Assembly: GCF_000003815.2 (NCBI RefSeq) | Contig: NC_049981.1 | Location: 28,694,379-28,758,378, forward strand | Length of the DNA: 64,000 nucleotides | Reading direction: 5' to 3' | Origin: Branchiostoma floridae | Lineage: Eukaryota; Chordata; Leptocardii; Amphioxiformes; Branchiostomatidae | In this document: positions 1,557-42,890 of the stretch, one piece after another | Position numbering within the stretch: position 1 is the stretch's first letter | Layout: each line of letters begins with the position of its first letter | Made by a program: the position numbers and the translations under genes | The notes under the pieces: generated by a model | Told to the model about the DNA's origin: nothing | Seen by the model: the letters and a program-made list of their open reading frames with translations, nothing else | Database searches by the model: none

Positions 1557-7729
<6,173 letters not shown>

Positions 7730-7881
7730 GCTTCTTTCAGATACCCTACAAGAGAGAACACCTGAGTCGCTTCTGCTTCTTAAATCTTAGTCCTTATCTT
7801 AACAACTCAAGCCTAGTTGCGTCAGTAGTAGCCCCTAATGGATAGAATATTGATATTATCTCGTCCTGTCAATTTACTCAC

Positions 7882-7945
7882 CGTCTCTTCAAACAGAAGT
7901 GTCGAGAAAACAGCATCTGCTGCGCGGGCGTCCGTATGATGAGCA
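7882..7945 (-). other. probable 5' non-coding exon of paralogue B
   Basis: Minus-strand sequence ending in a strong donor (GAGACG then GTGAGTAAATT, boundary at 7882). A matching acceptor TCTTGTAG lies just before GGTATCTGAAAGAAGC and the ATG at 7729. Splicing them leaves an open in-frame ATG in this exon (MLFSRHFCLKRR...), which would add 17 residues before the signal peptide. The outer boundary is a guess because no TATA box is evident. Confidence 0.5.
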
Positions 7946-9473
7946 ACGTGGTTTGAGATTTACTGATTGCTGGGAAAGAACACGTCACTCCTTACCAACC
8001 CATCTCAAATAATGGCATAAGTAGTCATTTCCTTAAGATAGACAGCCGGCGTAGTGAACTGTAGCATGCTTTCTTCGCAAAACGTAAAGCTGTCAAGTCG
8101 CTGACTTTTAAAAGCCACAAAAATGCACCCTTGTGTAGGTTACAAGGTTTTATTGAAGACATACTCATACACGCAGACAGTGTTACTTATAGTAACTTAT
8201 TAATATAGATGAATACTTCTTTCCATAGTTTTGTTCATCACGTCTTAATCAATAACTCATGAATACGAGTCTTCCAGTATAGGTCGTCATAGGTCTCTAT
8301 AGGTGATTTTTGGGATGATACAACAATTGCTGTACCATATATTCATGTATGGATAAGTATCAGTTTCTTTTTATGTACAATAAAAGGACGTTTGATTCAA
8401 TTATATGGCGGACTTCTTGCAATTCTTGCAATGGGATTCTACATTCTAAATAGTCTTGCTCCTCTTATAGTATTGCTCCAGATTTTGCCTCTGGATTTGA
8501 GTTTCCCTGGTTGTGTTGTAAGTGGTGGATAATGACAGAGGACTACTCGTTATCGCTAGGTCGGCATATTTTTTTCTTTGTACGACTCTTAAGCGGTCGA
8601 CTGGTCTCGCCGATGTAACGTTAGTTCACCTTTATCTGCGGGATAACCTTTATCCGTTGTTTTTAAAAAAAACTGAATATTTCGGGATGTCAATGCGGCG
8701 GACGGTGGTTTGAATTGGTAAACAAGCTGTATTTTAAAAAATATTGCACTCTTCTAAAACCACTGTCCATTCACTTGATATCCCTAAACACCCCCTGGTT
8801 TTAAACCAACGGATATTGGTTACTCCACGGATAAAGGCGAACTAGCGTTATGTGTTGTTGCAGTTGGGTTCTATTTTGCAATTGGTGCATTCAAAATATC
8901 GGTCCTTTGAATGCACTAGTTTTTAACGGAGAGTTGAGTGAAAAATTGAAGTTTGTTGGCAGTGTTGGCAAAATTGGTGGCAATGTTGAAGATGGGGAAG
9001 ATCCGCGGGATGAAACTTCCTGGACATATGAAATGGTTATGTTGACCTCGTTTCTTGTCTTATTGTCTTCATCTCGTTTTCATGTCGACTCATTGTTATG
9101 GTATAAAACCTGCTCTTCTAAAGATCTGCACAGTGTCACAGACGAAAGGAAGTGGATGCTACCTGAATTGGCCGTTTCCAATGTCATATCCAGTTGCTTA
9201 ACTAACTGCTATTTAACGTATCTTGTTACCTGAATGTCTAACACTTATCGACAAAACATCATATGGTAATTCACGTTGCCAGCCCGCCCCAGTTCTCGTA
9301 TATTATTAGAATGCTTCCACCATTGCCCTGTCACACGAACTTTAATAGCTACAAACATACTTTTATTTCCCAGACTGCCCGGCCAGACCCAGGACTGATT
9401 TGTGACCTCACTATAAGACAGACCAGGAATATCCAGAAACAACTAGGAAACATGGCATGTGTAAGATAGATGC
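7946..9473. other. intergenic spacer between the two tandem proteases
   Basis: About 1.5 kb between the 3' end of paralogue A and the 5' end of paralogue B. No coding exon with recognisable domain is seen; a 127-codon open frame at 8850-9233 has no domain and no splice context. A segment at 9184-9240 (CCAGTTGCTTAACTAACTGC) recurs at 39104-39165 and marks a dispersed repeat. Confidence 0.55.
9184..9240. repeat. dispersed repeat, copy 1
   Basis: The segment reads TATCCAGTTGCTTAACTAAC and then a conserved CGTATCTT.TTACCTG.ATGTCTAA block. A second copy with scattered differences lies at 39104-39165. No terminal repeats were found, so the parent element is unknown. Confidence 0.5.
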
Positions 9474-9479
9474 TTTATT
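9474..9479 (-). terminator. polyadenylation signal AATAAA
   Basis: Canonical AATAAA on the minus strand about 95 bases after the TAA stop at 9572-9574 of paralogue A. Confidence 0.65.
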
Positions 9480-9571
9480 TCTTTCGACGAAAGTCAGAAT
9501 GTTGTTTCACGTTGGTACGGTTTAGACATTGCTTGTTAAACTCTTGGTGTTGGGGCGAAACGGTACATCGT

Positions 9572-17623
<8,052 letters not shown>

Positions 17624-21321: not shown

Positions 21322-23675
21322 ATGAAAATTGTTCTTCTTCTTGCCTTTGTGGCAGCCGCCAGCGTAAGTAATATCTAGATATCAACTATATCTTTAATAC
21401 AGGAAAATATTAGGCCATACTTTTACACTGAATATGCTTAGAACTTTTCACAGAAAGAACAATAACTTTATTATATCCGCCAATGACCATGACTCAATTA
21501 CAATCTATGGAGAAAATAGTAGCCAGGTGAATCATTTAAGTCACAAACATGTCCGTAATTTCTGTTACCTGGTCCACAATTCAAAATTGGCTAAATGTTT
21601 TCTATGATTACGATGCTTGGTGTAAGAATTGCTGTTATGTTCTTGTCCGCCAGGCGGCGTGGCTGTGCCCTAACGGTGACTCCGACTGTGATCCCGGCCA
21701 ATGCTGTGTCAGGTCCCTCTTCGTCAACTCCTGCCAGTTCTTGGTTAGTAATGGTTTCGACTATCGTCGAAGTCGTCGTTAAATCTAGAAAATCTTTTCG
21801 TGTATGCAAAGTTCAAGTCCACGTTTGTGCTGAAAAGCTAATACCAAATTTTGATAATGATACAATTTTGAAGACTTTATATCCGTACACAAAATAAAGC
21901 GCTTACCAACAAGCTTTTGTACGGATATAAAGTCTTGAAAATTGTATCATTATGTTAACTACCGTCACAGATGAACTTACATTCAAACCAAATTTTGATA
22001 TTTGTTCCTTAGAAAAGTACTGTAGATACTGTTTATTTTGTGCCAACTAAGTTTCTCAGAGAGGCTCGAGGGGCCCCACACCCATTAGAAGTATCCTTAT
22101 GTGACAATAGAACCCTTTTGCTTAAGGAGGGTCTGCATGGGGGGTCCTGACAAAGCTTTACGCTAAATTCGGGACGGTCGACAACGCTTTACGTTAAATT
22201 CACGAAGGTAGGCAACGTTTTACGCTAAATTCAGACAGGCTGACAACGGTTTACGCTAAATTCTGGAAGGCTGGCAACACTCGACAGAGGCGGGGTCGTG
22301 CTCCGCAAGAAAGATTGAAATTTTGACTCTCTGAAACACTATTCCCTGCATTTTGAAGGGAAATTTTCGCTGGCAAACAAAGCTAAGTTAAATGGCATTT
22401 CTAATTAAAGAGTCCCAGGGGTTCAGCGTAAGCTTATGAGGGTGACGCCAGCCAACTTATTTTTACAACGTCGAGCGCCGAAGGAGAGTCCGGGAAAATT
22501 TTGAAATCCTGCCCCCCTAAAACGCCAGTTTTTTTGGCTATTATAGAAAACTAAGTGAAATTACATTTCTATCAGTAAAAAATGTGTTTGAGGTTGACAC
22601 GTCACATCCCCCAGCCATGATACATATTTTTTACGAAGTCGATGACCGAAGGTGAATAGAGTGGCAAAGAAGATCCGGCTAAATTTTGAAATCTTGACCC
22701 TCTATAAAACGATATTTTGTGCATTTTGATGGGCAAATTTCTATTAGCAAAACAGATCTTTGAGGTTGACACACATCCCCAACATATTTTCAGAATTTCG
22801 AGTTCCAAAGGCGCGAGGCGGCACAAGGAGGACCATGGAAATTTTGAAATCTTGACCCTCTAAAATGACATTTCCTGCATTCTGATGGGCAAATTTTGCT
22901 GGCAGACTAAGCTAACTTCAATGACATTTCTATTTGCAAAAAAAAGAAGATTTTTGAGGGTACATACCATATTTTTACCATGTAGATGACCGAAGGTGAA
23001 AGGAGTCGCAAGTGAGGTCCGGCGAAATTTTGAAATCTTGATCCTCTGAAACGCAATTTCCTGTGTTTTGAAGGACTAAATTTACTGGTAGACTACGTTT
23101 CGACTTACGAAATTTGGGAGGCCAGCTACGATTTACGGGTAATTTTTAGGCTTAATTACGCTTTACGTGAAATTTTTAGGCTAGATTACGCCTTACGTGA
23201 AATACACTGGCTACGCTTTACGGTAAATTTTCCATCCTCACTACGAATTACGTGAAATAAAATAGCTTACCCTACGAATTACGGGAATTAAAAAGGCCTG
23301 CCTACGCCTTACGGAAAAGAGCATGCAGACCCTCCTTAAGGCTATGATGAGTTTATAGAAATAGAAATATCTCAACAATCGTTTCTTCTGTACACTGATT
23401 CTTCTTACCTTTTAATCTCCTGTCTGTCTCTGTTTAACATTTGACGTTTTGTATCCTCCTAGGGGTTTCTTGAATTCATTAATGTTTAATAGTAATCATT
23501 ATTCTTCTCTCTCTCGACTCAGGGGCGCTTGTACGACAACTGTAACAACGACGCCCTCGCCGTCACCGGATACTGCCCCTGTGAGGACGGCTTGGTCTGT
23601 GTAGACTACGGCACCAGCTCCTTCTCAGACTTCTTCAGCGGGGACGGCTGGTGTGTCACCGCGCCCACCGCTTAA
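21322..23675 (+). CDS. secreted ten-cysteine colipase/Dickkopf-C-like peptide, gene 1
   Basis: Predicted 94-aa secreted protein from three phase-0 exons: 21322-21363 (signal peptide MKIVLLLAFVAAAS), 21654-21743 (Cys 1-5), 23523-23675 (Cys 6-10). Cysteine spacing is C-x6-C-x4-CC-x8-C-x9-C-x10-C-x-C-x5-C-x17-C. Apart from the x6 and x10 gaps this equals the spacing of the C-terminal (colipase-fold) domain of Dickkopf proteins, and it is also close to prokineticin (where the x9 gap likewise holds). There is no Dickkopf N-terminal domain. The three-exon plan also recalls prokineticin and colipase genes. AATAAA follows at 23768. Intron 2 carries a palindrome and a 1.2-kb TTAA-flanked element. Function unknown: Wnt modulation, receptor ligand and digestive cofactor are all open. 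Confidence 0.85.
21854..21953. mobile_element. palindromic MITE, 100 bp
   Basis: Arms beginning ATAATGATACAATTTT and ending AAAATTGTATCATTAT are near-perfect reverse complements, with a short AT-rich loop. A shorter relative with the same core (GATATAAAGTCTT) is at 42779-42858 in the kringle-protease gene. Confidence 0.75.
22126..23335. mobile_element. TTAA-flanked non-autonomous DNA transposon with internal repeats
   Basis: In intron 2 of peptide gene 1. Flanked by TTAA (22122-22125 and 23336-23339), with 14-bp perfect inverted ends GGAGGGTCTGCATG / CATGCAGACCCTCC. TTAA targets point to the piggyBac or Kolobok groups. The outer parts hold repeated TTTACG(C/T)(T/G)AAATT-like motifs. The middle carries about five diverged copies of a 160-190-bp unit with AAATTTTGAAATCTTGACCC (near 22316, 22497, 22684, 22843, 23026). 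No transposase frame is seen. Confidence 0.85.
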
Positions 23676-23767
23676 TACGACGCATAACTGACCAAAACTG
23701 TTGTTTTATGACAGTAGCTACAAGAATCAAACTTTCAAGTTCATATACAACTCAATGATGTAAACCA

Positions 23768-23773
23768 AATAAA
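23768..23773 (+). terminator. polyadenylation signal of peptide gene 1
   Basis: AATAAA about 95 bases after the stop codon at 23673-23675. Confidence 0.7.
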
Positions 23774-24740
23774 GAAACACCAAGCAAAGACAGACTAGTG
23801 TTTGTGTCATTCGTAACAAGAAAGTGCTTCCGAAACATGAAGTTACGCCAAATTTTGTCAATTTTCCTATAAATTTATAAATTGACAGGTTTACAGTTCT
23901 ACGAAAAATGTAACATGTGTAAAGAATAAGCTTCTGTACCCGTTCGCTATGATGAATATTGATAATTCTCTAAGTCCCGACTGCCCTCTTATCAATAAGA
24001 TTTCTCTTACATTTTCTAAGAAAAGTCATTCTACTATAGTACTAGTCGTACTAGATTCATAGGCTTGAACACTGTGAGTGACATAAAAGTAGACCTGAAC
24101 ACATGGATATACAACAGACAGGCAGACAAATAGACAGACTAGCAGACGTCCCTTAGAGGTAAAATATCTGCCTACTATTTACTCGGCAGATTGTGTTGTA
24201 ACACACTGTACATATTTCGACATGTGGAAAACCTTTAAAAAAGCACATTCACTCACGGCCACAAGAGGAAGATAGTTAGTCTGTGGTATTTGCAGGTGTT
24301 AACCTCAAAATCGATCATCTGGAAATGACGTAGGCAAACAGAATCGTGGCCATTTGAACTGCACAAAAAAGTGACGTCAAGGACACATTTAATAATTTTC
24401 ACCACGCAAGATAAACCAAATTTGTAGGTCACTCCTAGTCAGTACCGTCACTTGCTCTCTTCTGACTTCCACAAAGTCTAAATCTACCTTGTTTGTACAT
24501 ATATTACATTTGTACCATATCGAACGGGAAAATACGTGGCTCTGTTCACGTACTGCACTCAAAAGTTGCACAATATTTTACCACGGAGTGTCAGGAGGAT
24601 AACCTCATAGAAACTATGCCGTCAGGATGTTTGAAGTCCAATACCAACCGGACAAGACTGTTTGCACACACATAAACTGTACTACTATGATTACAATCTT
24701 CACTGTGGGGTCGGCAGGTCCGTGAGGTGATTCGAAGTGC
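23774..24740. other. spacer upstream of peptide gene 2
   Basis: No gene seen. It contains the conserved promoter-distal motif at 24301-24332 and, near 24619-24675, GTCAGGATGTTTGAAGTCCA and CCGGACAAGACTGTTT, which resemble sequence upstream of genes 3 and 4. Confidence 0.5.
24301..24332 (+). promoter_or_regulatory. conserved distal module upstream of peptide gene 2
   Basis: AACCTCAAAATCGATCA followed by GGAAATGACGTA. Nearly the same string lies at 28848-28880. Distance to the ATG is about 500 bases here and 520 there. ATGACGTA resembles a CRE/bZIP site; the role is inferred from conservation only. Confidence 0.5.
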
Positions 24741-24747
24741 ATAAATA
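24741..24747 (+). promoter_or_regulatory. TATA box of peptide gene 2
   Basis: ATAAATA in ATAAATACAGG, 62 bases before the ATG at 24803. Confidence 0.7.
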
Positions 24748-24802
24748 CAGGCCCTCTCGCCTGGGATCCGTCTATTCGCTGACGACCCCTAACTACATCA
24801 CC

Positions 24803-26085
24803 ATGAAAACCGTTCTTCTTCTTGCTTTTGTGGCAGCCGCCAATGTGAGTAACAATATCTAGATACCATCTATATCTCACGTATACTTACAGAATAAGCA
24901 TGGATATTTTCACATAAAGACCATTTACAATATCCAACAACGGCAGCGGGTCTATTGCAATCTAAGCCAGAGGAGATAGAAAGTAGTAGCTACTAAATTT
25001 ATATGTGTAAAATCTTTAATTCGCAACTCTTGAACCGGAGTGTTGCCTTTTGCACGACGAGAAAACAGGCCAAGGAAAGATAACACGAATTTTCTGAAAA
25101 TCGACTTGAAAGTAAATTATTCAAAGGCTGCCAGTAGAAGATATCCATTGCATATAAACACTTCAAACTACATGAAGTTAGACTTCTGACCCCCTTTTCA
25201 ATTGAGTAATATGCCAGTCGTTATTAATGCAAACCGTTCCATGGTGTCTACATTTATGCTTATGGCAATGTCGTAGTTGATCAAATGTTTCCTAGTATGC
25301 TTGAATATCACACTGGCGTAAGCATTGCTGTTATGTTCTTGTCCGGCAGGCGGCGTGGCTGTGTCCTAACGGTGTGGTGGACTGTGATCCCGGCGAGTGC
25401 TGTGTCAGATCCTTTGTGGTCAACAGCTGTCAGCCCATGGTTCGTAATACGAGACCTTGGTCTAGATTCGTAAAAATCATACTCGTGTCTTAAAGTCTGT
25501 TTGATTTTATTTCCACGTCTGTATTGAAAAGCTAATAAAAAATGGCTAAATCTTAATTGTTTAAAGAAGTCCTAAACTTGGCCGAAAAAGTTGGCTGATC
25601 GTGTATTCATTGATACATAATCTATTGGAAAATAACATACCTTCTGAAGTTAAGTTAAGGTTTTATGGCAGTAAAAAACATTCTCAGACAAGCCATTTTG
25701 AGTATAATGAAAGTGTTTTGACTGTGCTGATAGGAAAACTGCGGTGAAAATAAAAAGTTCACTTTAGCTGTCTAGAAAAAAAAAACAATCACAAAGTCAC
25801 ACAGTGATATTTTTTTACTCTTCTCATTCTTCTTATCTTGGGTCTCTTGGCGAGGGTTTCCTGGCAGTGGTAGCTAACATGCCTCTTTTTCCCAATTCCC
25901 AGGGACAACTATACGACGCATGCAACAACGAGGGCCTCTCCATCACCGGCTACTGCGACTGCGCGGATGGCTTGACCTGCGTCGACTACGGCACCAGCGC
26001 CTTCACTGACTTCTTCGTCGGCGACGGCTGGTGTGTCACCGCGGCCACTGGCGCCACTAGAGTTGCAGCTGGAAACGACGCATAA
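24803..26085 (+). CDS. secreted ten-cysteine colipase/Dickkopf-C-like peptide, gene 2
   Basis: Predicted 104 aa. Exons 24803-24844 (signal peptide MKTVLLLAFVAAAN), 25350-25439 and 25903-26085, all phase 0 with GT/AG borders. Exon 2 gives C-x6-C-x4-CC-x8-C and exon 3 gives the remaining five cysteines with the same C-x-C-x5-C-x17-C ending as gene 1. The C-terminal tail after the last Cys is the longest of the cluster (about 20 residues, Ala/Gly/Thr-rich). AATAAA lies at 26151-26156. Clearly a tandem duplicate of genes 1, 3 and 4; function unknown. Confidence 0.85.
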
Positions 26086-26150
26086 CGGTCCAAAAGTGTC
26101 CTCCAGTAGATCTGAGAAAGCTCGATCTTTTGGTCTGAAGATGAGAACCA

Positions 26151-26156
26151 AATAAA
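26151..26156 (+). terminator. polyadenylation signal of peptide gene 2
   Basis: AATAAA 66 bases after the stop codon at 26083-26085. Confidence 0.7.
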
Positions 26157-26466
26157 ACAGCATGTTGTACGACTGGACTTTTGTTTGTCTTATTTCTGGT
26201 CAGGAAGCGGTTTCAATATATGAAAAACAGGCCACACGTAGCGTGGTCTATTTTTGCCAATGTGTCATTTTAGGGGTGGGTACCGGTACAGCAAATTCAG
26301 GTACAGGTACGGTCCAGGTTCAGATGATCAGGTCCAGGTCAGGGCCTGAACATGAACATGAACCTGGACCTAATTATCTGCATGTTAACTTATTATAATC
26401 AAAACAATGGTCCATCCCGCTACCAATGTATTCTGTAAAGTTGAGTATCCGACGTCCATTGGCGTT

Positions 26467-26892
26467 TTAAAATCCTATCTTCATGTAAACAACTTGACTA
26501 ACTCCCTCTGTTTCAGACCAAGTTTTACTGTGGAAACATAGTATTAAAGAGTTAAACATAGGAGTTTTCAATATGAACATGTTATCAGATGTTCTGTAGT
26601 TTTTGTGAAATCCTGCTTGGTTTGGTTTTCTGGTGCCTTTATCCTCGAAGAAGGTTGATAGTCTTGTACTATGGTACTGCAGCTGAGGTTTAAAGTTGGT
26701 GGTGAAATTTCCCTCAAGTGCCAGGTTCATGATTTTTTGTAGTGGATACGTCTTTGGACAGGGAGTCAGTTGTGTAAATTTGGCCCCCCTGGCAGCTCGT
26801 TTTGAATTGCAGCAAGCGATTTTGTTGTTATCTTTGGAAGAGAATAAGTCAAGCAGGGATTGGTGGATTTGCATTATTTTTAGTATGAACAT
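26467..26892 (-). pseudogene. LINE reverse-transcriptase fragment, inverted part
   Basis: Minus-strand open frame with the motif NQAGFHKNYRTSDNMFILKT, the conserved QxGFRKxxxTxDN segment of non-LTR reverse transcriptases. It lies in the opposite orientation to the downstream part of the same kind of protein at 27050-27960. There is no intact reverse-transcriptase catalytic motif; it is a dead fragment. Confidence 0.65.
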
Positions 26893-26914
26893 ACCCTAGG
26901 TGATGATTAAAATA

Positions 26915-27062
26915 CTGCAATGTATTGAATTAAAATCTGGGATTTTTGTATTCAACAAAAGGGGCCACTTATTTTCTAACTTTTAAGTTAGAAAATAAGT
27001 GGCCCCTTTTGTTGAAGTTAGAAAATAAGTGGCCCCTTTTGTTGAATGCAAAAATCCCAGAT
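26915..27062. repeat. inverted duplication at the LINE junction
   Basis: The string GGCCACTTATTTTCTAAC and its reverse complement occur three times within 100 bases: plus at 26963, minus at 26986-27009 and again at 27018-27042. The flanks (AAAATCTGGGATTTTTG / CAAAAATCCCAGATTTT) are also inverted. The plus copy translates as FNKRGHLFSN, a LINE protein segment, so the palindrome arose within LINE sequence. Confidence 0.75.
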
Positions 27063-28275
27063 TTTAATACAATACTTCTCTTTATACAATAAAACGATAG
27101 AGATAGTTCCAACTTACTGTTACCTAGGCATTATGTTTACAGCAAGTTGTACATTTAGCACTGCTGTAAAGAAGGCCCAAAGAGCATTATTTAGTATTAG
27201 AAGTACACTAGGAGAAACTAGATCTTCTGTATCACTACATTGTAAACTGTTCGACCGATTTTATTGTATGGATCTGAAGTCTGGTGCAGTAGCAAATTGA
27301 ACGACAAATCATCATTAGAGTTCATCTGAAATTCTGTAAGTACATCCTTGGTGTTCGAAGGCACGCCAGTAATTTTGCAAGTATAGCGGAACTGGGGCGT
27401 TTCCCCTTGTGGATTGAAGCTCAATGCAGATGTATATTTATTATTTTAGATTAGCCAACGAAGTGCGCACAAGTAGTCATGAAGCTTACATGGTACAGCA
27501 GGATCTAGATCGCCGTAAAACACCCTGCTGGTTATCTGATGTAAGGAAACTCTTAGAGGAGTCCGGTTTTGCCTACCTGTATAAAAACGGCCACTCCAAC
27601 GTTCCCTCTCATCTAAATCAACTAAAGCAATGGTTGAAAGATCTTTATCCAAATATTTAATTCAGAACTACAAGCTTAAGCAAAGGGACGGAAAGAAACC
27701 CAAGGAAACAAATTGAGGACATACAAAACATTCAAAGAGACATATGAAAAAGAAACATATAGTAGAATCTCAAGCTTTGAACATCGCAGAGCTATGTGTA
27801 AATTTCGCATAAGTGACCATCCGTTACATATAGAATCCGACAGGCATAATCGTACTCCTTTAGGTGATAGAACATGTAAATTATGTGACCACTTATATCT
27901 TGAAGACGAGACACATTTTTTACTAGATTGTACATTATATGAATACGAACAATAGACAATGATTACAAGAAAATGTCAAAACATGACTTATTCAAATACT
28001 TGATGTCATGCACGAACGGTCATGCGATTGACGCAATATGTAAATATATCTCCACGTGTTTCAAAAAGAGAGAAGAACATGTTAGATGCAGACATTAGCG
28101 ATAGTACGATATGTTACCCGTTGTAACACATAAGTTCTCTTTCCATGTAGCCTAGTTTAGAATCACTGTATAAGTTTAGTTTTGCCTTTGCATCCATAAG
28201 ACCACATGTGGTCCTTCTGTGCATTTAGCCTTCGGGCATGAATATGCAATAAAGAATATGAATTATTATTATTAT
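27046..28275 (+). pseudogene. LINE (non-LTR retrotransposon) 3' part, dead
   Basis: Broken coding frames on the plus strand: VPTYCYLGIMFTASCTFSTA and IRSTLGETRSS (after the polymerase domain), ELGRFPLWIEAQ, and CKLCDHLYLEDETHFLLDC, the C-terminal zinc-knuckle-like segment of many L2/CR1/RTE-related elements. Frameshifts separate them. The 3' end has AATAAAGAATATGAATT followed by (ATT)n, a usual non-LTR tail. Confidence 0.8.
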
Positions 28276-28847
28276 ATAAAGTAAAATGACTATCAACTCT
28301 CCTCTACTTCGCGCTTGTTATTTGCTTGGACACATAAGCCCGAAAACACGTAAACGTATCCCGCCGTAGTGCCGGTGTATAATTTGTTCATTTTCTAATC
28401 GGTCCGAAATCCGGTCTGCTGATTTTTTTCGGACCGGTCCAACAAAGAAAAACGGTCTGTACCGGTGCCCACCCCTAGTGTCATTGCTTTCAATCACAGT
28501 GTTATGAGTACACAATTTATGCTATCAATTACAATATATAGGATGTATAATGTATATGTATATTCTTTATAGTGACATTGATGCTATGAACCACAGTAAT
28601 AATTCTATATGACGAGGTCACTTTGGCCCTTCACTCAAAGAGAGAGGACAGAGGGAGAAGAGAGAGAGAGAGACAGTTAGACAATCCCCAATGCAATACG
28701 TCATTCTCTTCGGATGAAGTAAAAACGTTAAGTAAACAGACTGTCACGTTTTTTTTGTGTGCATATTTCATCATCTTGAAAGCAATGAAAGCACGCTGGC
28801 TCAATAAGATAAAAGAAAGAGGGTCATTCTGTGATATTTGCAGGTAA

Positions 28848-28880
28848 TGACCTCAAAATCGATCACGGGAAATGACGTAA
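28848..28880 (+). promoter_or_regulatory. conserved distal module upstream of peptide gene 3
   Basis: GACCTCAAAATCGATCACGG followed by GAAATGACGTAAATGACC. It matches the module at 24301-24332 upstream of gene 2, at a similar distance from the ATG. Confidence 0.5.
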
Positions 28881-29299
28881 ATGACCATAGTGGGTTTGAC
28901 TATAAAGACAAGCTAACAGATGTATAATGTTATGATACTGCTAATATTAAATAATTTCCATCTTATATCGTAAGATATAATGATCAGAACCCACTCCTAG
29001 AACTTGAGTACCGTCCTTTGTATTGTTTAGGGTTCTGCATGGTAAAAAGAAAGGTTTTTATGTCCCTATATTTGAAAAGAGAAAACTTGGCTCCTTCACG
29101 TACAATGTACCTATGTCAAAATTTACACATTTTCGCCAGATAAGGTCCGGAAGATGGCCCATCCCGTTTCCATGGAAACCCTGGCAGTAGGATGTTTGAA
29201 CTACCATACGAACCGGACTAGACTGTTTACACACATAATCATGGCGTACTCTTTATTTGCAGGGTCAGCAAGTTCATGTAGTATGATAATTCCAAGTCC
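28881..29299. other. promoter region of peptide gene 3
   Basis: Holds the conserved motif GATAAGGTCCGGAAGATGG at 29139-29157 and, after it, GTAGGATGTTTGAACTACC and ACCGGACTAGACTGTTTACA, similar to sequences upstream of genes 2 and 4. No coding sequence. Confidence 0.5.
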
Positions 29300-29306
29300 A
29301 TAAATA
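29300..29306 (+). promoter_or_regulatory. TATA box of peptide gene 3
   Basis: ATAAATA in ATAAATACAGG, 68 bases before the ATG at 29368. Confidence 0.7.
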
Positions 29307-29367
29307 CAGGACCGTGTAGTCTGGATCCCCCTATTCGCTGATAGGCCTTCTCTTTAACCACATCATC

Positions 29368-30911
29368 ATGAAAATCGTTCTTCTTCTCGCCTTTGTGGCA
29401 GCCGCCAACGTGAGTATTGATATCTAGATATGAACTTTATCTTACAAGGAACTGAAACATTTTCTATATAGTACATTTGTGTCCATTGTACAGGTAGATT
29501 ATCATACTTGGCGTATACTAGCTTGTTCTTTAACTCAATGATTACTTTTCTGTATCCATATTGCATTTTCATGTATGGTGAATTGTGCTTATATTCTTGT
29601 TCTGCATTTATGTTTTGAGAAGAGAGTTCGCATAAGTATTTTGCATCCTGACCAATCCTTATGAAATACATGTGAATAGAATTGAATTAGATAAGTTAAG
29701 CTATGATTTTAATATTAATTGCGAAAGAGGCAACGTTCAGCGAGAACCATGGTTTGATAGATACATTAGAATTTGCATATTAAAAACTGGAAGTCACTGC
29801 CGTCACGACGCTTGACTTTTGATGCTTGGACGCTTGACATTTCCTTTATACAAAAGTCGTATCATGGCGCCTTACTGAAGCCAGACTATTCTTCTGATAG
29901 AAAAAGTTCTAACTAACGTAAGACTTGCTGGTATGTTCTTATCCGCTAGGCGGCGTGGTTGTGTCCTAACGGTGACGTGGACTGCGACCCCGGCGAGTGC
30001 TGTGTCAGATCTTTCCTCATCAACACCTGCCATGACAGGGTACGTAAACTTGAGCCCAGTATGAGCCAAATTGTATTGATATATCTTAACAGTCACAACG
30101 TCTTATTCTTACCCATCTTCTTTTTAATCGGCTCATTTCTATTCCTATTTCCCGGCGATCTCTACCCAACGTTAACGCGTTGACAATGATCTTTCCGTGA
30201 AGTCCTGTCAGATGGGACTCTCCATCCCCGCCATACACATGGGAATATCAGCTCTGTCTATCCGTCTTAAGCTGTCTTAAGAAGCGAGAAGAAGTTGAAC
30301 ATATACATACTAGTATGCATGTAGTAAGATACAAAATTGCTATATCACTTTTGTTGTACTCAGTATCTTTATCACCATGTACCTGTATGAATGAATGAAT
30401 GCCTTAAAGTGCAATACGTACAATAAAGGTATTTCCTTCTTTCCCTAGTTCCTTCATTCCCTCCTTCCATCCTTCCTTTCTTCCTTCCTTCATTCATTCC
30501 TTCCTTCCTTTCTCCATTCATTCATTCATTCACTCTCATTTCTTCCTTCCTTCCTTCCTTCCTTCCTTCTTTCCTTCCTTCCTTCCTTCCTTCCTTCCTT
30601 CCTTCCTTCCTTCCTTCCTTCCTTCCTTCCTTCCTTCCTTCCTTCCTTCCTTCCTTCCTTCCTTCCTTCCTTCCTTCCTTCCTTCCTTCCTTCCTTCCTT
30701 CCTTCCTTCCTTCATTCATCCCTCCATCATATTTCCCCCCCAGCCCGGACTGTACGACAACTGCAACAACGACGCCCTTTCCGTCACCGGCTACTGCGAC
30801 TGCGCGGACGGTTACGTCTGTGCTGACTACGGCACCAGCTCCTTCTCCGACTTCTTCAACGGTGACGGCTGGTGTGTCCACGACGTCGGCAGCGGAAATG
30901 GCGCAAACTAA
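29368..30911 (+). CDS. secreted ten-cysteine colipase/Dickkopf-C-like peptide, gene 3
   Basis: Predicted 99 aa. Exons 29368-29409 (signal peptide MKIVLLLAFVAAAN), 29950-30039 and 30744-30911, phase 0 throughout. Ten cysteines with the cluster's spacing; exon 3 contains TGYCDCADGYVC and SDFFNGDGWC. The residue after the usual Gly is Tyr instead of Leu (GYVC for GLVC). The tail after the last Cys is short and Gly/Asn-rich. Intron 2 ends in a long CTTC repeat close to the acceptor, which could affect splicing. AATAAA at 30964-30969. Confidence 0.85.
30433..30740. repeat. (CTTC)n microsatellite region
   Basis: An imperfect stretch from 30433, then nearly pure TTCC repeats over about 30541-30713, with a single interruption. 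It forms an extreme polypyrimidine tract ending about 30 bases before the acceptor of exon 3 of peptide gene 3. Confidence 0.95.
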
Positions 30912-30969
30912 TGCCACCTGATCCTGTAATCTTCAGTTCAAGGCAGCTGACTGCTGAGGACTAAATAAA

Positions 30970-31613
30970 TTAACACGTCATACGCATAGATTTGTGTTTG
31001 TGTCATGTCATTTGTGAATATATAGTACATCTTGCTTGGCAGCACTGAAATAACCTCAGAACCACGCGGACTGACTGTCGCGTTTGATATCTCTCTCATC
31101 ACCTATAAAGCCTTGAAAGTATATTGACCGAACAAACTAAAAGTAAGATAGCATAGCCAGTCCGTGCTGTCTGCAGGTGTTGCCACTGTTGCCAAGGTCT
31201 TCTGAGAATGATATACGATATAGCCTTTAGTTCGAGTTGTAGTTTTAACTAACATAGCAAAGGTCAGTGACCAAAAGGGCATACCTGGAGGTTGAGACGT
31301 TTCTGACTAAAGCCCATTTTAGGCCACTGACTCTTTGGAATTCTCTTCTTCTTTTCCTCCAGCATTCCGCTAGCTGTAAATTCGAAATTTATTTTGATGC
31401 TAGATTTTCTTCCCTCTTTTAAACGAAAATATGTTTGACATACTTGTATACCTTGCGTATAGTTACACATAGTCTTTTCCTGATAAGGTCCGGAACATGG
31501 CCCCTCCCTTACCCACGGAAAACGTGGAATTAGGATGTTTGTGCAACCAACAGAAGCCGGACAAGAATGTTTACAAACATACATTGAGTAACGTAAAATA
31601 TAGACACACAATA
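30970..31613. other. spacer and promoter region of peptide gene 4
   Basis: No gene seen. Contains GATAAGGTCCGGAACATGG at 31482-31500, the shared cluster motif, and GGATGTTTGTGCAACCAAC with CCGGACAAGAATGTTTAC downstream. TGCAGGTGTTGCC near 31173 weakly matches sequence beside the distal modules of genes 2 and 3. Confidence 0.5.
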
Positions 31614-31620
31614 ATAAATA
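31614..31620 (+). promoter_or_regulatory. TATA box of peptide gene 4
   Basis: ATAAATA in ATAAATACGGG, 68 bases before the ATG at 31682. Confidence 0.7.
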
Positions 31621-31681
31621 CGGGGCCTTGTCTTCTGGGCTCTCTCCACACACTGACTGACCCTCCACTATCCACATCATC

Positions 31682-33699
31682 ATGAAAGTTGTCCTTCTTC
31701 TCGCCTTTGTGGCCGCCGCTAACGTGAGTAGTCATGATATCCTGTTATGTGTAACCACGAGTTCAAACTATTTCTACATATTCCTACAACTGTTCCACAA
31801 TTGTCAAAAGATGATGTCTTAAATCAAGGACGTTACTCAAATCTACTGTCACTAACGCTCTGGAAAAAAAAACAATTATCTCAGAAACGTATTACGTATG
31901 ACTGAAGTGGTAAAGCTTGTCTTGCTTCAGACCAATATTGTGGCAGTAATTTTATATCCGGATCATCATCATCGTCGCCGCATTTCTAGTGTTTCAAGTG
32001 AGGTGGGCCGTTATCCAAACTTTCATCTAGTTTTAAATTTGTAATAAAATTTAAAAGTCATATGGAACATCTTTTTACATGATGCCACCTACATCCAACC
32101 TTCTTTTGAAAAAAGACATTGCTGCACTTGGCAATCCGATTGTCATGAGAGTATTCAATACGATTGATTGAACAGACTACATAAGTTATAGGCATTGGCA
32201 AAATGTGCTATGGTTTAACTACCATCTGTAACGTTACATTTTGTTGGTAACGTGTACATTGTTTCCCCCCAGGCGGCGTGGCTGTGTCCTAACGGGGACT
32301 CCGACTGTGATCCCGGCGAGTGCTGCGTCAGGTCCTTCATCATTAACACCTGCCAGGACAGGGTAAGGAGTACTTCAGTAATATCCAAGCAGATCCTATG
32401 GTGCCATAAGATAGTATCAAAACTGGCATAGGAGTCTAGCCGGCTAAGGGAGTCAAACGGGCAGCTTGATACTATACATTACGCACCGTTGATCTGGTTG
32501 TAGATTAGTACTTCAGACCTGAAACTTTACCAAGATTCTTCTCATCCTCTACTACATCCAGACAAGAAATCATTATCATGCTTTTAGTTTGTGTAAGCAA
32601 AGTTAGGTTCCACAGCAAAATTAAATAGCTATTATCTTTTTTACCTGCTACTAAGTGTTTAGTACTGTGTAAATGTGCTTTGCGATACTCTTCTCTCAAA
32701 CTAACAGTAACTTATGGTAACGGCAATTATCTAACTGTAAGTAACGTTATGTCTTGGAGTTCTGTCCTGTTAGGAAAGGAATATGACCCTAGTTGAAGTT
32801 CGGCGGTAATGAGAATTTTATTACATGGGCCGGGGGGTTCATATTATTTGTGTAGACACATCTTTTATGTTTCTAAAGCCTAATATTTTTTTTACTTTGT
32901 CCTACTCCTTTTTCACATCTTTCTCTTGGTGATACAGAATGGAAAGCCGCCATTTTCTTAATCTTTTTATGCTAATTTGCCCCACCACACATCCCACTGA
33001 GGTAACAGGTTGTTTCGCAACAATGTCAATTCGCAACCGTCAGTTCGCAACAAGGCAAGTCTTTTCGCAACAAGGTACAAGTCGTTTCGCAACATTTTAA
33101 TGTTATTAAACTTGATAGCCTGATAGTATTAGAAATCGTATTCCTAACATAATTGTACTGCTTCCACGTAAAAATCTTACCGGGTGCGAAAGACAACCCC
33201 GGCGGCAGAGGAACATGGGGCCGCATGGACCTGACAGCCCGATGATTTTCATGCGCCGGGTGGTATAGTTTCATACGTGTCGTGCACAGGAAGGAGTCTT
33301 CCTAACATAATTGTACTATGTTAGGGATACTATTTCTAATACTATTAGGGTATCAAGATTAATAACATTAAAATGTTGTGAAACGACTTGTACCTTGTTG
33401 CGAAAAGACTTGCCTTGTTGCGAACTGACGGTTGCGAACTGACATTGTTGCGAAACAACCTGTACCCCCCACTGACATCATCTGAAATGAATTAGCATTC
33501 TCAACTGTTGTGTCTCTCTCCCCAGCCCGGCCTGTACGACTCCTGCAACAACGACGCCCTCTCCGTCACCGGCTACTGCGACTGCGCAGAAGGCTTGAGG
33601 TGTGCCGACTACGGCACCAGCGCCTTCTCCGACTTCTTCAGCGGCGACGGCTGGTGCGTCACCGCGCCCGCGGAGCCCGGCAGCGGGAACGGGGTCTAA
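31682..33699 (+). CDS. secreted ten-cysteine colipase/Dickkopf-C-like peptide, gene 4
   Basis: Predicted 101 aa. Exons 31682-31723 (signal peptide MKVVLLLAFVAAAN), 32273-32362 and 33526-33699, phase 0 with GT/AG borders. Ten cysteines with the same spacing as genes 1-3: exon 2 has DCDPGECCVRSF, exon 3 TGYCDCAEGLRC and DFFSGDGWC. The tail is Pro/Gly-rich. Intron 2 holds half of a palindromic MITE (32383-32476) and a 467-bp inverted-repeat element (33001-33467). AATAAA at 33757-33762. Confidence 0.85.
32383..32476. mobile_element. palindromic MITE, degraded copy
   Basis: ATCCAAGCAGATCCTATGGT and TAGTATCAAAAC match the left arm of the palindrome at 59041-59203; CAGCTTGATACTATA is what remains of the right arm. 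Confidence 0.65.
33001..33467. mobile_element. long inverted-repeat element with TTCGCAAC subrepeats
   Basis: In intron 2 of peptide gene 4. Two arms of about 165 bp are near-identical reverse complements (ACAGGTTGTTTCGCAACAAT / ATTGTTGCGAAACAACCTGT), separated by about 140 unique bases. Flanking CCCACTGA (32993-33000 and 33468-33475) fits an 8-bp target duplication. Each arm carries five TTCGCAAC-type motifs. No coding capacity. Confidence 0.8.
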
Positions 33700-33762
33700 T
33701 CTGAGGAAAATTGCCGTCCGATCTCTCTGAGAAAGTTCTTTAGATGTTGCGGACCAAATAAA

Positions 33763-36180
33763 GCAACTTGTCATGTAGATTGACTTTCGTATGTGTCGTT
33801 GATTGTCAGAGAGTTGAATTCAAATAGGCGTCCAGCGAGACGAAGAACATCGAATAGCTGGACCTTTTCATTCTATAGTTGGTCACTCTTTACTGTCTTT
33901 AGGATTATTGTCGACTAGGTACAAAATGCCTTGCATGCATGTCAATGAAATAGAATCTAGTTCAGATATAACAATGTTTGTGACCCGATATGTTCTCTCA
34001 TGGCTTTTTGAATGTTGTGTCGTTCACTTCAAGGTCAGAAGTTTCCTCGTAATGTCCTACATTGAAAAATATCGGAATACCAAAAAGATGTTTCTATGTC
34101 CTACGTCATTGCAAAATGTCGGAATTAAAATTGATAAGGAGTTATGAATTTTGTGAGTCTTAAGAGTTGAGGGTCCTAACTTGATTACGTCTTTTTTGCG
34201 TATATCAGTACATTAGACCTATGGGTGAAAGAGCTCAATGACAGTTTACCTTGAATATATATAAATGCACATACACACTTCGAGTTCCTAGCACAGCTAT
34301 ATGCAGCTCTTACCGAAAAGTCCCTCCCGAAAAAGCAATAGGATTATCCAAACAAATATATATATAATGGGAGCCTAATGAATACAGTCCATCTGGGTCC
34401 GTTGCGTTGATATACATAGAAAAGTATGTGTCCTTTTCCGTGACTAAATGCATTCCAAAGCAACTCCACAACTTATGTCAGGCCAGGCAAAAATGGCAGC
34501 TTCGCAATCCAGTTTATCATTTTACTCCCGTGCTATCTTCTTTCTATCGTCTTCCAACATTGACGACACTTAGTCTGATGACAAGTCTCAGTGAGACGTG
34601 CCGGATACCATGCGAGCTCCTTTCGCGATATCTCGTGAGACCGTTGACAGCTGACGCTCAAACTTTGCAGATAGCCGTATCTCAGCTGAATACAGCTAGC
34701 GACTTTTTCAAACCTCTGCCGGTAATGTTGACTCTATTGACCTTGCCAGGACAAGTGAACGGTAACTCAGAATCTTGCCTGGTGAAGTGCTATTGCGCAC
34801 GCGCAGTGTACTGGGCAAGATATTAACTATATTATAAAGGTTGTTTTATGAATATGGTGAACAAATTCGGATTTTTTGCCTTTGTTTGTAATTTGTCAAA
34901 AATGCATATTGTCATAGATTGCTCATGTGTACATAAGGCCCTTTTTATTTGATTTTATGGATGACATCCACTCAAAAACGTCTGTTTCCAGAAAAAGTTT
35001 TGACGGTACTGTAAACCGTATAAAGCAGCTAGAAAATAAGCAAATACACGTCATCAATTGACAAAAATATATATAAACGATGGTTACTTAATGTCGCAGA
35101 ATGGCAGTCAGTCCCCAAGTCAATGAAAAAGATGTGAAAGAAAAAAAAAGAATATATTGTTCGGTTTACCAAGCTGTGTGTGTTCAGTCGTTAGTTCAAC
35201 AACGACTTCGCAACAAATAAGATCTCATAAGGAAGGCAACCGTTTTTGTTAAACTTTTTTTTATTCCCACACTCGCACCAGTTTGGGGAGTATGCCATCC
35301 ATATAATCAAATCAACATGGCCTAATCGTGTTACAGAATAAAACTGTACCTTTTTGAAAGTCATTTTTGACGTTACCGAGCAGCAAAATATTTTAGGCAA
35401 GAGAAATCAGCAACCAATGCGTAAAATTTGTTTGAATGTGGACAGCTTGCTCCCCCCGACAGCAAGAAAAAAAATCGTCATCGTTTTTACTATGAATCGA
35501 GCAAAAACGGTAACGTGTATACATGCGTCTTCAAATATCTTGAATGGCCTATCAGGTGTTTCATATTTGCATTTCTTGTGCCTTTCGGATGCCACACCCC
35601 ATAAGGTCACGATACCAAGTCCTTGAATGTCGTCATATGCAGAGGGGACGGATCGTTATATCTCTGACATATGGCAATTCATTGAGTCTCCACCATTCTC
35701 GCTTATTTCTTATTTCTTACATTGTATGATAATAATGATATTCGTGATTGCTATTAGTGACAATTTATGCCCTGATCATGATACTATGGGAAAGGGGTGT
35801 CCCTCACGGTCAAGCTCATGATTTCAATTGGTTGGTAACTGCGAGATCTCAGTTCCACCCTGGGAAGGGCATCTCGGTTGGGGCTGCATCAGTCTTTCGG
35901 AAGGGACGTAAAATTTGGGTCCAATGTTTGAGGATGTGTCTCGAGCGAGTTTAAGGGGACGGACTAGCAACCCCTCCCTAAAAATAAGGATAGTTGCTGT
36001 CCTGTGTTCCTCTGGGACTACAAGTATCCGAAGGAACTCTGAGAAAATGATAATGCAATGGTTTCCAGTGCCTTTCAGAATGATAATAATACCCCTTGTG
36101 TTACCTGAATCGTCCCTTAACTCTCTCCTTATTAGGTGGGTCAGTATGATGGTAGATGTTTCGTCATCCTGAAACGGCAC
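33763..36180. other. spacer between peptide genes 4 and 5
   Basis: About 2.4 kb with no convincing gene. The 139-codon frame at 34407-34826 has no domain. A SINE-tail-like repeat sits at 35852-35990. Upstream of gene 5 there is no ATAAATACAGG box like that of genes 1-4; TACAAAAG at about 36185 is the only TATA-like string. Confidence 0.5.
35852..35990 (+). repeat. SINE-tail-like dispersed repeat
   Basis: GTCTTTCGGAAGGGACGTAA at 35892, followed by GGACTAGCAACCCCTCCCTA. The first part is shared with 18640-18660. Confidence 0.5.
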
Positions 36181-36242
36181 ACGGTACAAAAGCAATTCTA
36201 GACAGAAGGTTCTTTCCCGTTTGATCTGACCTCACCGGCTCA

Positions 36243-37374
36243 ATGATGAAGTCTTTCCTGGCTTTCCTGGCCTTCGCCGCCATCTTCTACACCACAGAGG
36301 TGTGTTGAATTTTGCAATCTTTTTACTTGACTGCATACGTACATATTACTGTACTATTATTGTGAGAAATGTTATAAAAATTGACTATGTTTGACAAACT
36401 GCAAAGTGTGGTAGCAAACGACGATGACTTGCCGCCACAGCTTGTGTCTCAGTGTGTAGTTGCGTTAAATCATTGTTATTCACCATTGTCATCTAGCTAC
36501 TTCGTATATTTTGTTTCTGCTATTGTATTTTGCTTGTAGTATTCATGATCTGGGCTCCTAAGTTTATATTCTGCTAACATTCAGGAGTTCCCTTGGAAAT
36601 CGGCGCTTTTCGAAATGAAGGGACTACGTTCTTATTGTCAATCCGTCCCTGAATGATTCTTGTGTGCTGTAGCAATATATAACGCCATAGTAGAGTTCCT
36701 GCGTACTATAACGTAACCCTTCACATTTACTTCTTACTACAGGGTCTGATATTCGAGCCTTTCTGCTCCACGGATGCGGACTGTGAACCCAACGAATGCT
36801 GTGAGCGGAGCATCGTCCTGAACAGCTGCAAGCCCAGGGTAAGGACATAACGTTCTTAAAGGACACGAAAGCCTTACAAAACAGTATGTTATGACGGAGA
36901 CTTCTACTGTGTATAGGCTAGTGCATGTACGAATAGCCAAGGCTAGATCTCTAAACAGATCATGCTGTTGTTCCCCTGGCAAAACGTCGTATAACAGGCG
37001 GCCATGGCCAGTGACAATCCTGCCAAAGGGTCTCCTTTGACTGGGTTCTTTAGCGTTTTATCTGGTCTAAAAGGGTCGAATTCGTAGAAAACTATCCAAT
37101 GCGCCAGTATGATATCTACCCCTAAAACTACAGACAGCCCTATTTTAATCATATGCTACAAACATTTGTCCAATGTTTGCGTACACACTGACGTGGAGGC
37201 TATACTGTGTATTTCCCCAAGCCCGGCCTGTACGACTACTGCAACTCCAACAGCCTAACCCTGACTGGGCTCTGTCCCTGCGACGAGGGGCTAGAGTGTG
37301 TCGACTACAACCAAAACTTCGTCTTCGACGTTGTGACCGGGGACAGTTGGTGTGTGGCCCTGCCGGACGTCTAG
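36243..37374 (+). CDS. secreted ten-cysteine colipase/Dickkopf-C-like peptide, gene 5 (divergent)
   Basis: Predicted 101 aa. Exons 36243-36299 (signal peptide MMKSFLAFLAFAAIFYTTE), 36743-36838 and 37222-37374, all phase 0. Spacing is C-x5-C-x4-CC-x8-C-x9-C-x10-C-x-C-x5-C-x17-C; here the first gap is x5, exactly as in the Dickkopf C-terminal domain. Sequence is a second subfamily: DCEPNECCERS in exon 2, and LTGLCPCDEGLEC with VDYNQNFVFDVV in exon 3, in place of TGYCDC and DYGTSSFSDFF. AATAAA follows at 37424. A second, similar last exon lies 0.66 kb downstream (38032-38205) and may be an alternative end of this gene. Confidence 0.85.
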
Positions 37375-38031
37375 TCGGCCCGTCCGAGAACCTACGCTTC
37401 CCCCGTTCGTCGTTTTTGACGTGAATAAAATTCATGATGAAAACTTTGTCCGAATCTTTCATACATAACATTACATTTGTACGGTAATTGCAACCAGTTC
37501 ATTCCACCATTTGAAAGGAGTATATCGCCGTAACGTAAGCTTAAAATTCGTGTCCTTGCATGTAGGATTGATATATACTATTAGGTACGTATATGTATAG
37601 TTATGTCCAAAGCTAGAGGTCGTTTGCAGCGGTCGCTACTCTGACTCCGATGCAACCTTGACCAAAAAGGACGAAAGAGGCTCGGCAGCTATGATGCGTT
37701 CGGGCTCCAGGCTACATGTATGTATGTATATATACACTATTCCCACTCTATTGGGAATATCGACGCAACGTCAAAGGACAGCAATCAGAAAAGATGCTAA
37801 GGGAAAGATATCTGGATGTACTTAAAGCCTACAGGTATGTCCGTGACTAGTTTCATCAGATCGAGACATTGCAGATGTACCTGGGGGAGAGAAGGTAGCT
37901 GCATGATCATGGCCTTGAGGACGGTAGCTGACGGACTACCGGGACGTTCAATGGAAGGTAAAATGTGTGTAGAGGAACATGTTGTGTGGAGACAAATATC
38001 TTCTCAATTTTGTGTATTTCTCACCCTGCAG

Positions 38032-38205
38032 CCCGGCCTGTACGAGTACTGTAACGTGGACAGCCTGACGCTGACCGGTCTGTGCTCCTGTGACGAGGGG
38101 CTGGAGTGTGTGGACTACAACCAGAACTTCGTCTTCGACGTCTTCACCGGAGACAGCTGGTGCGTGCCCATCCCAGACGTGGTGGGATCTGGTGGCGGAT
38201 TTTGA
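38032..38205 (+). CDS. orphan or alternative last exon of peptide gene 5
   Basis: Strong acceptor (CACCCTGCAG) and an open frame of 57 codons to TGA: LTGLCSCDEGLEC and NFVFDVFTGDSWC, closest to exon 3 of gene 5 (identical NQNFVFDV). All five second-half cysteines are kept and the frame (phase 0) is compatible with splicing from exon 2 of gene 5. AATAAA at 38240-38245. No signal-peptide exon or first-half cysteine exon is seen between 37375 and 38031. So it is either an alternative terminal exon or the remnant of a partial duplication. Confidence 0.7.
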   Translation, partial: PGLYEYCNVDSLTLTGLCSCDEGLECVDYNQNFVFDVFTGDSWCVPIPDVVGSGGGF

Positions 38206-40041: not shown

Positions 40042-42890
40042 ATGAGGACAGCTCTAGCGCTTCTGAGCCTTTTGGCCTTGTCAGCTGCTCAAGGTTCGTC
40101 CTTCCAAACTCGCATCTCTTTGTCCACACATGTGGTCTGTTTGTTCCTTCGCAGGCGTAAGATATCTATCCTAAACACTGAAGATAGTGTTGTATAAATA
40201 GCGTATGTTATAGGCGGGCATGTCACGCTGCCATATCAGACCGCCATATGCTACTGTGTTGTCTATAATGTCTTTTTAAAAAGATGACTCTGTGGAAACA
40301 CTGGTGCTCTACAGTTTTGTGTCCATTTGTAATAAATATCTAAAGCAAATACTAACACTTAATGAAGTATGGTATGATATTTATGTTCTTGAAATTTCCT
40401 CTGACGTTTTTTTAATGTAATTCTAATTTTGAGACATGGTGTTCAATGTCCCAAGTTCCCAACGCATTGTCCGAACGATTTAGCTACTTATACTGGATCC
40501 CGGTGCACGAATATTATAAAAGCTATAGAGATTGATAGCAGTACAGTCAAACCTGTATTAGGGGCCACCTCTACAGAGGGGCCACCTGTCCATAGTGGCC
40601 ACTTTCTGTCAGTCCCTTGGGTATTTTATCTACAAGTTGCCACCTCTATACAGAGGCCACCTGTCTATAGTGGCCAAATGTGTCCGGTCCCTTGAGTGGC
40701 CGCTATAGACAGGTTTGACTGTACATATCCTGCGCAGAAACTTTGACGCACTTTTATTTCCTAAGTTAGCGTTTATTGTGTACACCGTTCGCCTCTCCCA
40801 TTAGACTGCTATGTCGGTAGGGGCAGTGCCTACCGTGGGGATGTAAACGTCACTTCTAACGGGCTAGAGTGCCAACCTTGGTCCGTCCAGGCCCCGAACG
40901 GACATGCCTTCACCCCCACCAACTACCCAGACGCCGGGCTGGACGGGAACTACTGCCGCAACCCGGACAGCGACGTCAGGCCCTGGTGCTACACCATGGA
41001 CCCGAACGTGCGGTACGGCTACTGTGACGCTCCGCAATGTGGTACGTTTAGAGTCAAAGGAGTTGAAATTTTGAAGAAAAAAAAAGTAACTGTTATCATC
41101 TGCTACTTCGTTGTCGGGCATTTTCCCTACCTTTTAGGTCATCATATGTATCGTAGTTTGTTGTTTACCGTTTTGTGCCCTGATCGTATTTGAAAATTTG
41201 AAATAGAATAACTGATAATGAAAATAGAACAGCCGCACATGCTGTAGCCTGTGTTTACACAAGCTCTCGCCGGCTGGGCTTAATGACCCCCTCCCCCCGA
41301 GAGGTGGCGGCAATTGTCGGGCCGGCCGCTAGGGGCTTGATTTTAGTCAGGCTACACATGCTGTGATTGCCCTACAATGTTTTGAAGCTGCAACTTTGTT
41401 GTTTACTTAAACTTATGTCGTTAATATATGTATCGTTGTTTGCTAGTTACTACATTGTGTCCTGGTCTTTCTGGAATTTTTTAATACAAATTGAAAATGC
41501 AAATGCTGAAGCAAATGAAATCCCTCACAACTCAAGACTTGTGGAGAATTACAAGACAACATAGTGACCGCAAAACGAGATGAATACGGGACTTCTTGTT
41601 TAATATGACAAAACCATAATGTATAACGTTAGTATAAGACAATCAATTTGGGAGCTCCAAGAATAGCATGACTTTTGTTAATTCTAGAATGTTAGTATCA
41701 CAGTGATAAGACAATAATGCCATTATTCCAGACTGCATGTTCAACACCGGCGAGTTTTACAAGGGTTCAAAGGCCACCTCCATTTCCGGTCTGACCTGTC
41801 AGCGGTGGGACTCTCAGTCCCCTCACCAACATGACAGGTGAATGAAATATTTAAATTTTAATCGTGACGTGTGTTAGCCTGGTAACCATACCTATGGGTT
41901 TAGGGATGTCTTTTACCGGTCACTACCCGGAAATTAAATCATATGCCTTTTTTCTTCCGACCGGCCTTTGTACAAGGGACGACGTGTGCTAATGTGCATG
42001 GGCGAGGTGTCCCCGATGGTTCGGTTACCAGGCCAGACTGTCCACACAATTTCGATCCTTTTCAGTTTTCTTCAATAGAAAAATCCCCCACCCCTCTACT
42101 GTGACAATATGGGTTCTTGTACTTTGTCTATGTCGTGCGCACCTTGGTCCCAGTTCCAGATTTCTCCTTTATGATACGTATAGTTTTTATTTTATATTCC
42201 CTTCTTCTGTGTGAAGAACTCCACAAAACTACCCTGAAAATGACCTTCGTGAGAACTACTGCCGTAACCCGGATGGAGAACCTCGTACCTGGTGTTACAC
42301 TACGGACCCAAATGTGCGCTGGGAACACTGTGATGTCCCGAAATGTGGTAAGTTTGCTTTACTACGCAATGTGCAGTATCACATACATCCGTATCGGGTG
42401 AGAATGGAATGGCAGAGCAAACTTGAATATTCAAATATCTTAAACTATTGGATGTTCAATAGCTTAAACCAATGCGCTTTCTTAAACTATTGAATTTCCC
42501 AATAGCTTAAAACCAAGGAGCCTGATTAAACTATTGGATATGAATTAGATATCATTTCAAAAGGTGAACGTCTGGAGACCAGTGCGAAAATGGTCTGGAA
42601 TCATCATACAACGCAAATCGTGGCCACGTCAGTTTTGAAACATTCGTTGACCATCTTAATATCAAGTCTCATGTAAACAACGCTGCATTGAGACCAGAAA
42701 TCTTTTACCTTAGGAAAATGTTAAAGTATGCATCTGTAACTAGGCTTGAATGTAAATTCATCTGTGACGGTAGTCAACATTATGTTACAATTTTTAAGAC
42801 TCTAGGTAAGTGCTTTACTTTGTGTATGGATATAAAGTCTTAAAAATTGTAGCATAATCTGTAACTAAGGGAGCGATAGAAGAATTGCGT

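Follow-up and report, generated by a model that had tools for sequence, protein, structure and literature searches.

A tandem family of predicted secreted ten-cysteine proteins with a probable colipase fold in Branchiostoma floridae

Introduction

Free-standing secreted peptides with a ten-cysteine colipase fold are already known from several animals. They include Hydra Dkk1/2/4, which the excerpted text of PMC6425005 describes as lacking the first Dickkopf domain; the short peptide NDA-1 of Hydra and colipase-fold peptides of anthozoans, as presented in excerpts of PMC5614986 and PMC11896702; and the prokineticins, which excerpts of PMC11521371 and PMC6188537 place in many animals. We analyzed a tandem cluster of small genes that encode predicted secreted proteins with ten cysteines in a 64,000-nucleotide stretch of the Branchiostoma floridae genome (RefSeq assembly GCF_000003815.2, contig NC_049981.1, C3:28694379-28758378), here called the window, in whose positions coordinates are given unless a contig is named. 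An initial annotation of this stretch had read the cluster as free-standing domains like the C-terminal domain of Dickkopf and had known of no described group with its cysteine pattern. The second statement stands for the exact pattern, of which we found no description among the listed titles and abstract openings in the part of the literature on amphioxus, colipase, Dickkopf and prokineticin that was searched, but not for free-standing ten-cysteine colipase-fold peptides as such. The sequence comparisons presented here support membership of the cluster in the colipase-fold superfamily, within which it is most likely a separate branch, kin to colipase, the prokineticins and the Dickkopf C domain. 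We assign a probability of about 0.4 to the fuller reading, in which the cluster would be a tandem family of secreted colipase-fold proteins on a branch of its own, with a colipase-like binding role outside the cell.

Results

Five three-exon genes lie head to tail on the plus strand between positions 21322 and 37374, followed by one further third exon at 38032..38205. In each gene the first exon encodes a hydrophobic, signal-peptide-like stretch, the second carries cysteines 1 to 5 (C1-C5), and the third carries C6-C10 and the stop codon. The three exons lie at 21322..21363, 21654..21743 and 23523..23675 in gene 1; at 24803..24844, 25350..25439 and 25903..26085 in gene 2; at 29368..29409, 29950..30039 and 30744..30911 in gene 3; at 31682..31723, 32273..32362 and 33526..33699 in gene 4; and at 36243..36299, 36743..36838 and 37222..37374 in gene 5. 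Second and third exons were placed by spliced models and cysteine motifs and first exons by spliced models. The extra third exon, which likewise encodes C6-C10 and a stop, was placed by motif and has a ratio of amino acid-changing to silent substitution (dN/dS) of 0.06 against gene 5 exon 3. All 10 introns are GT-AG and in phase 0, an AATAAA lies downstream of the stop in all five genes, and a TAAATA box stands 61-67 bases upstream of the ATG in four of the five.

The spliced products of genes 1 to 5 are 94, 104, 99, 101 and 101 amino acids long, with ten cysteines in each. The gaps between successive cysteines are 6,4,0,8,9,10,1,5,17 in genes 1-4 and 5,4,0,8,9,10,1,5,17 in gene 5, and the extra exon carries the 10,1,5,17 half of the pattern. 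The initial annotation had listed the five genes and the lone exon, their product lengths of 94-104 amino acids and this spacing; all six loci were recovered at their coordinates and the gaps agree, with the extra exon representing the second half. A strict six-frame motif search of the window returned six third exons and five second exons, neither motif occurred when the window was simulated 100 times with a first-order Markov model, and we rejected a chance origin of the pattern on these grounds. A looser cysteine motif also matched a few unrelated sites in the window.

Searches of the PDB place these domains among proteins of the colipase fold. A profile built from the five domains and the extra exon returned seven matches at E ≤ 10, namely DKK1 (three), DKK2, Bv8, MIT1 and a theraphotoxin, all seven of which we take to be colipase-fold entries. 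When the extra exon was replaced by a more divergent relative from farther along the same contig (member 7, introduced below), the resulting six-member profile matched 11 of 177,635 PDB sequences at E ≤ 10, and 10 of these carry the same presumed label: DKK1/2, Bv8, MIT1, the theraphotoxin and three colipase sequences. The eleventh, a tick salivary protein (E 0.07), was not counted as colipase-fold. The best profile match was the DKK2 C domain, with an E value of 0.00064. Gene 4 by itself gave six PDB matches in all, among them the DKK2 C domain (E 0.0034) and Draxin (E 8.9). A designed repeat protein ranked first for this gene by whole-sequence E value (2.1e-07) and was set aside, as it aligns to the signal peptide and not to the domain. 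Two scrambled-column profiles in which the cysteines were kept fixed both found nothing in the PDB at E ≤ 10, and we therefore rejected the idea that the spacing of the cysteines by itself accounts for the matches. The ten cysteines follow the CC / C-x-C pattern in a residue context like that of the solved members. The colipase-fold assignment of the initial annotation is thus supported, at the level of the superfamily, by sequence profiles with negative controls.

Assignment to any one described family is a different matter, since no Pfam cut-off is reached by any of the five genes or by member 7, and the best Pfam match of gene 3 has an E value of 3.5. The cluster also stands apart in charge. 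Net charge between C1 and C10 is -8 to -12 in all six domains compared (genes 1-5 and member 7), and elsewhere it is +3 in the DKK1/2/4 protein of the same genome, -1 to +6 in seven prokineticin-like domains and +1 in pig colipase. One prokineticin-like locus, L005, was left out of this comparison and of the tree described below because its frame leaves the cysteine pattern after C6.

Genome-wide searches covered the 513,431,437-base assembly in 431 contigs. With gene 4 exon 3 as the query, the matches at E ≤ 10 were the six third exons of the cluster and a seventh at C3:28799891-28800028. The seventh defines member 7, which lies 67 kb downstream, outside the span of the initial annotation, and is more divergent. 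In 140 kb of flanking sequence (about 6 kb of it N), tblastn and a motif scan added only this member, the remaining matches having E values of 0.009 or worse or being unconvincing motif matches; the count of seven members refers to that one exon-3 query and this flank scan. When spliced at the obvious sites, member 7 has the gaps 5,4,0,10,9,10,1,5,17. With this splicing the intron precedes C5 instead of following it, and conservation of the exon boundary is therefore imperfect. The search for its first exon found none, and runs of N lie upstream.

Between the extra third exon and gene 5 exon 3 we counted about 16.3 silent and 6.7 amino acid-changing differences, which corresponds to the dN/dS of 0.06 given above. 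The extra exon has its own stop and, by eye, a downstream AATAAA, and a tblastn search for a first or second exon belonging to it found no credible candidate. On the simplest reading it may serve gene 5 as an alternative last exon, which would be spliced to exons 1 and 2 of that gene to give a second isoform; on the other reading it is a separate gene whose first exons have been lost or missed. Across the five genes and the extra exon, dN/dS ranges from 0.06 to 0.47 in all 15 pairs, from simple Nei-Gojobori counts over the aligned core (exon 3 only for pairs with the extra exon) in which three dS values exceed 1 and are hence rough. The copies therefore look maintained, and the cluster is under purifying selection on average.

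The genome's own DKK1/2/4 (L001) allows a direct comparison with Dickkopf. It has a Dickkopf N exon followed by the C domain in one open frame, with no intron of the kind that splits the cluster domain, and its C domain passes the Pfam DKK C models with scores of 52.6 and 46.3 bits. Genes 1-4 reach only 8.2-15.9 bits in these models, whose cut-off is 27, and gene 5 has no match. Dickkopf_N occurs at three sites in the genome, the nearest on the contig of the cluster more than 9 Mb away; it has no match in genes 1-5 and scores 10.7 bits against a cut-off of 25 in member 7, in keeping with the earlier claim that the cluster lacks this domain. At one of the three sites (L003, C19:10382954-10383121) Dickkopf_N exceeds its cut-off inside a 1139-amino-acid open frame, an unusual context.

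Gap by gap, the likeness to the Dickkopf C domain (the CRD2 of DKK1/2/4) that the initial annotation had drawn holds in large part. The DKK alignments bear out ten cysteines, the x4, x8, x9, x1 and x5 gaps and the longer gap of about 16 in Dickkopf (C6-C7 is 15-16 there and 10 in the cluster). The claimed x17 last gap is not visible for DKK1/2 in those alignments; it is 16 in the genome's DKK1/2/4 and 17 in pig colipase. We assigned by hand, on alignments, the LRP6 contact residues of DKK1 that are listed in the excerpted text of PMC5325476. Of these, H204, W206, E232 and R236 occur in none of the five genes, S228 in one and F205 in three, and the genome's DKK1/2/4 keeps H204, E232 and R236 with aromatic residues at 205 and 206. 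Antagonism of Wnt by the cluster proteins is unlikely, because the LRP6 contacts are mostly gone and the charge is opposite.

The cluster is flanked by frames with trypsin, CUB, LDL-receptor A and kringle domains (3225-17483 on the minus strand, 40765-41190 on the plus strand and 47281-47601 on the minus strand; 7 of 9 tested frames matched). Several repeats lie between its exons. Intron 2 of gene 4 holds an inverted repeat at 33005-33463 with 147-nucleotide arms that are 95% complementary, which looks like a small mobile element, and intron 2 of gene 1 holds 1.2 kb with tandem units of 30-31 nucleotides between perfect 19-nucleotide inverted ends (22121-23340). Between genes 2 and 3, inverted ends of 21 nucleotides (95%) enclose 2.2 kb at 26271-28477, pieces of which resemble, by eye only, the end of a retroelement. 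About 70 copies of TTCC occupy 30433-30717 and stop about 27 bases upstream of the third exon of gene 3.

Discussion

We propose that each protein of the cluster would consist of a signal peptide and one colipase-fold domain, with five disulfides expected by analogy, the first half-domain encoded by exon 2 and the second by exon 3. On our preferred but tentative reading, the chain would leave the cell and act as a stable extracellular binding protein. Pancreatic colipase is likewise a free-standing secreted domain, whose gaps of 9,11,1,5,17 in the pig are close to the 9,10,1,5,17 of the cluster; in member 7, as spliced, the x10 between C4 and C5 is also colipase-like. Hydropathy relative to pig colipase is comparable in the C9-C10 loop, somewhat higher in C4-C5 and lower in C6-C7, and the hydrophobic C4-C5 and C9-C10 loops could bind at a lipid surface or to an enzyme partner as colipase does.

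Several observations weigh against such a role or against the branch itself. The PDB matches to colipase are weak (E 0.075-0.14), and the Pfam models Colipase and Colipase_C have no match to E 10 in genes 1-5 or member 7, a negative to be read with the HMMER filters in mind, which drop most weak matches; Colipase_C itself has weak matches elsewhere in the genome, at E 0.042 in DKK1/2/4 and at E 0.11 in one prokineticin-like domain. Pig colipase, far from sharing the acidity of the cluster, is at +1 over C1-C10, and it has 6 hydrophobic residues in the C6-C7 loop, where the cluster has 3-4. In a tree of 15 domains none of the 12 inner branches was supported, and outside the cysteines genes 4, 5 and member 7 share 4-12 of 52-60 positions with the known relatives aligned. 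An AlphaFold2 model of the exon-3 half, which covers only a half-domain, reached a pLDDT (predicted local distance difference test) of 53.9, too low to be informative about the fold. Contact with a lipid surface is a guess, because pig colipase is not acidic and has the more hydrophobic C6-C7 loop, and we consider this step by itself less probable than the joint figure given for the whole reading. It is doubtful that the cluster is, all at once, an acidic colipase-fold branch outside vertebrates serving as a lipase cofactor or lipid-interface protein, with half-domains on separate exons, two isoforms of gene 5 and a spacing intermediate between the Dickkopf C domain and colipase.

The cluster proteins might instead be divergent prokineticin-like ligands for the expanded prokineticin-receptor-like G-protein-coupled receptors of amphioxus, of which the excerpted text of PMC2246102 gives twenty genes. 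Like prokineticin, MIT1 and astakine they are free-standing secreted ten-cysteine domains, Bv8 and MIT1 are among their PDB matches, and gene 1 comes closer to the cut-off of Pfam Prokineticin (20.4 versus 21.6 bits) than to that of any other family, with its best E value in the related family MIT_LIKE_ACTX (0.00036; 21.5 versus 27.5 bits). The gene models, however, lack AVIT at the mature N terminus, a start that is required in chordates according to the excerpted text of PMC11521371. Prokineticin-like domains proper are also plentiful in this genome, with 14 matches, all 14 over the Pfam cut-off (41.8 bits for one such protein, L006), and seven of eight that were examined are complete, each lying in a single open stretch, and have gaps of 5,8,0,11-14,9,19,1,5,10-11, so that loop lengths differ from those of the cluster at four places; the cluster is, moreover, far more acidic. 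Plain membership in the prokineticins was rejected on the missed cut-off, the absence of AVIT and the different gaps, and while activation of a prokineticin receptor is possible, we regard the ligand explanation as improbable. As a separate observation, the prokineticin-like matches (L004-L011 and six others) lie on C2, C9, C10, C13 and C19, most of them on C2, C10 and C13, and this expansion may itself supply ligands, which would fit the twenty receptor-like genes (PMC2246102, in excerpt). A role as a ligand in either Wnt or prokineticin-receptor signaling is not favored for the cluster.

Tandem duplication is common among defense genes, and the cluster could encode mucosal or hemolymph defense peptides. 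The comparison would be with Hydra NDA-1, a secreted, colipase-like antimicrobial with ten cysteines in the excerpted account of PMC5614986. NDA-1 is a cationic peptide whose C-terminal part is presumably cleaved off, whereas the cluster is strongly acidic (NDA-1 and the anthozoan groups were compared by their published descriptions, seen in excerpt, only), and pairwise dN/dS below 0.5 gives no sign of diversifying selection, this being an average under which single sites could behave otherwise. We consider a defense function unlikely. Least probable is that these proteins antagonize Wnt as free-standing Dickkopf C domains: Hydra dkk1/2/4 does lack the first domain (PMC6425005, in excerpt), most cysteine gaps are those of DKK and the best PDB match is the DKK2 C domain, but the missed family cut-offs, the loss of most LRP6 contacts and of the basic C6-C7 loop, the opposite charge and the intron within the domain led us to reject plain Dickkopf membership and, with it, the specifically Dickkopf-like reading of the initial annotation.

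If the cluster is indeed a separate colipase-fold branch, it would join Dickkopf and the prokineticins as the third type of colipase-fold protein within a single chordate genome. Its loop lengths would lie between those of Dickkopf and colipase, and ideas on how vertebrate colipase originated would become easier to test. The placement of half-domains on separate exons bears on the published idea, as given in the excerpted text of PMC6078440, that duplication of a single subdomain gave rise to the domain.

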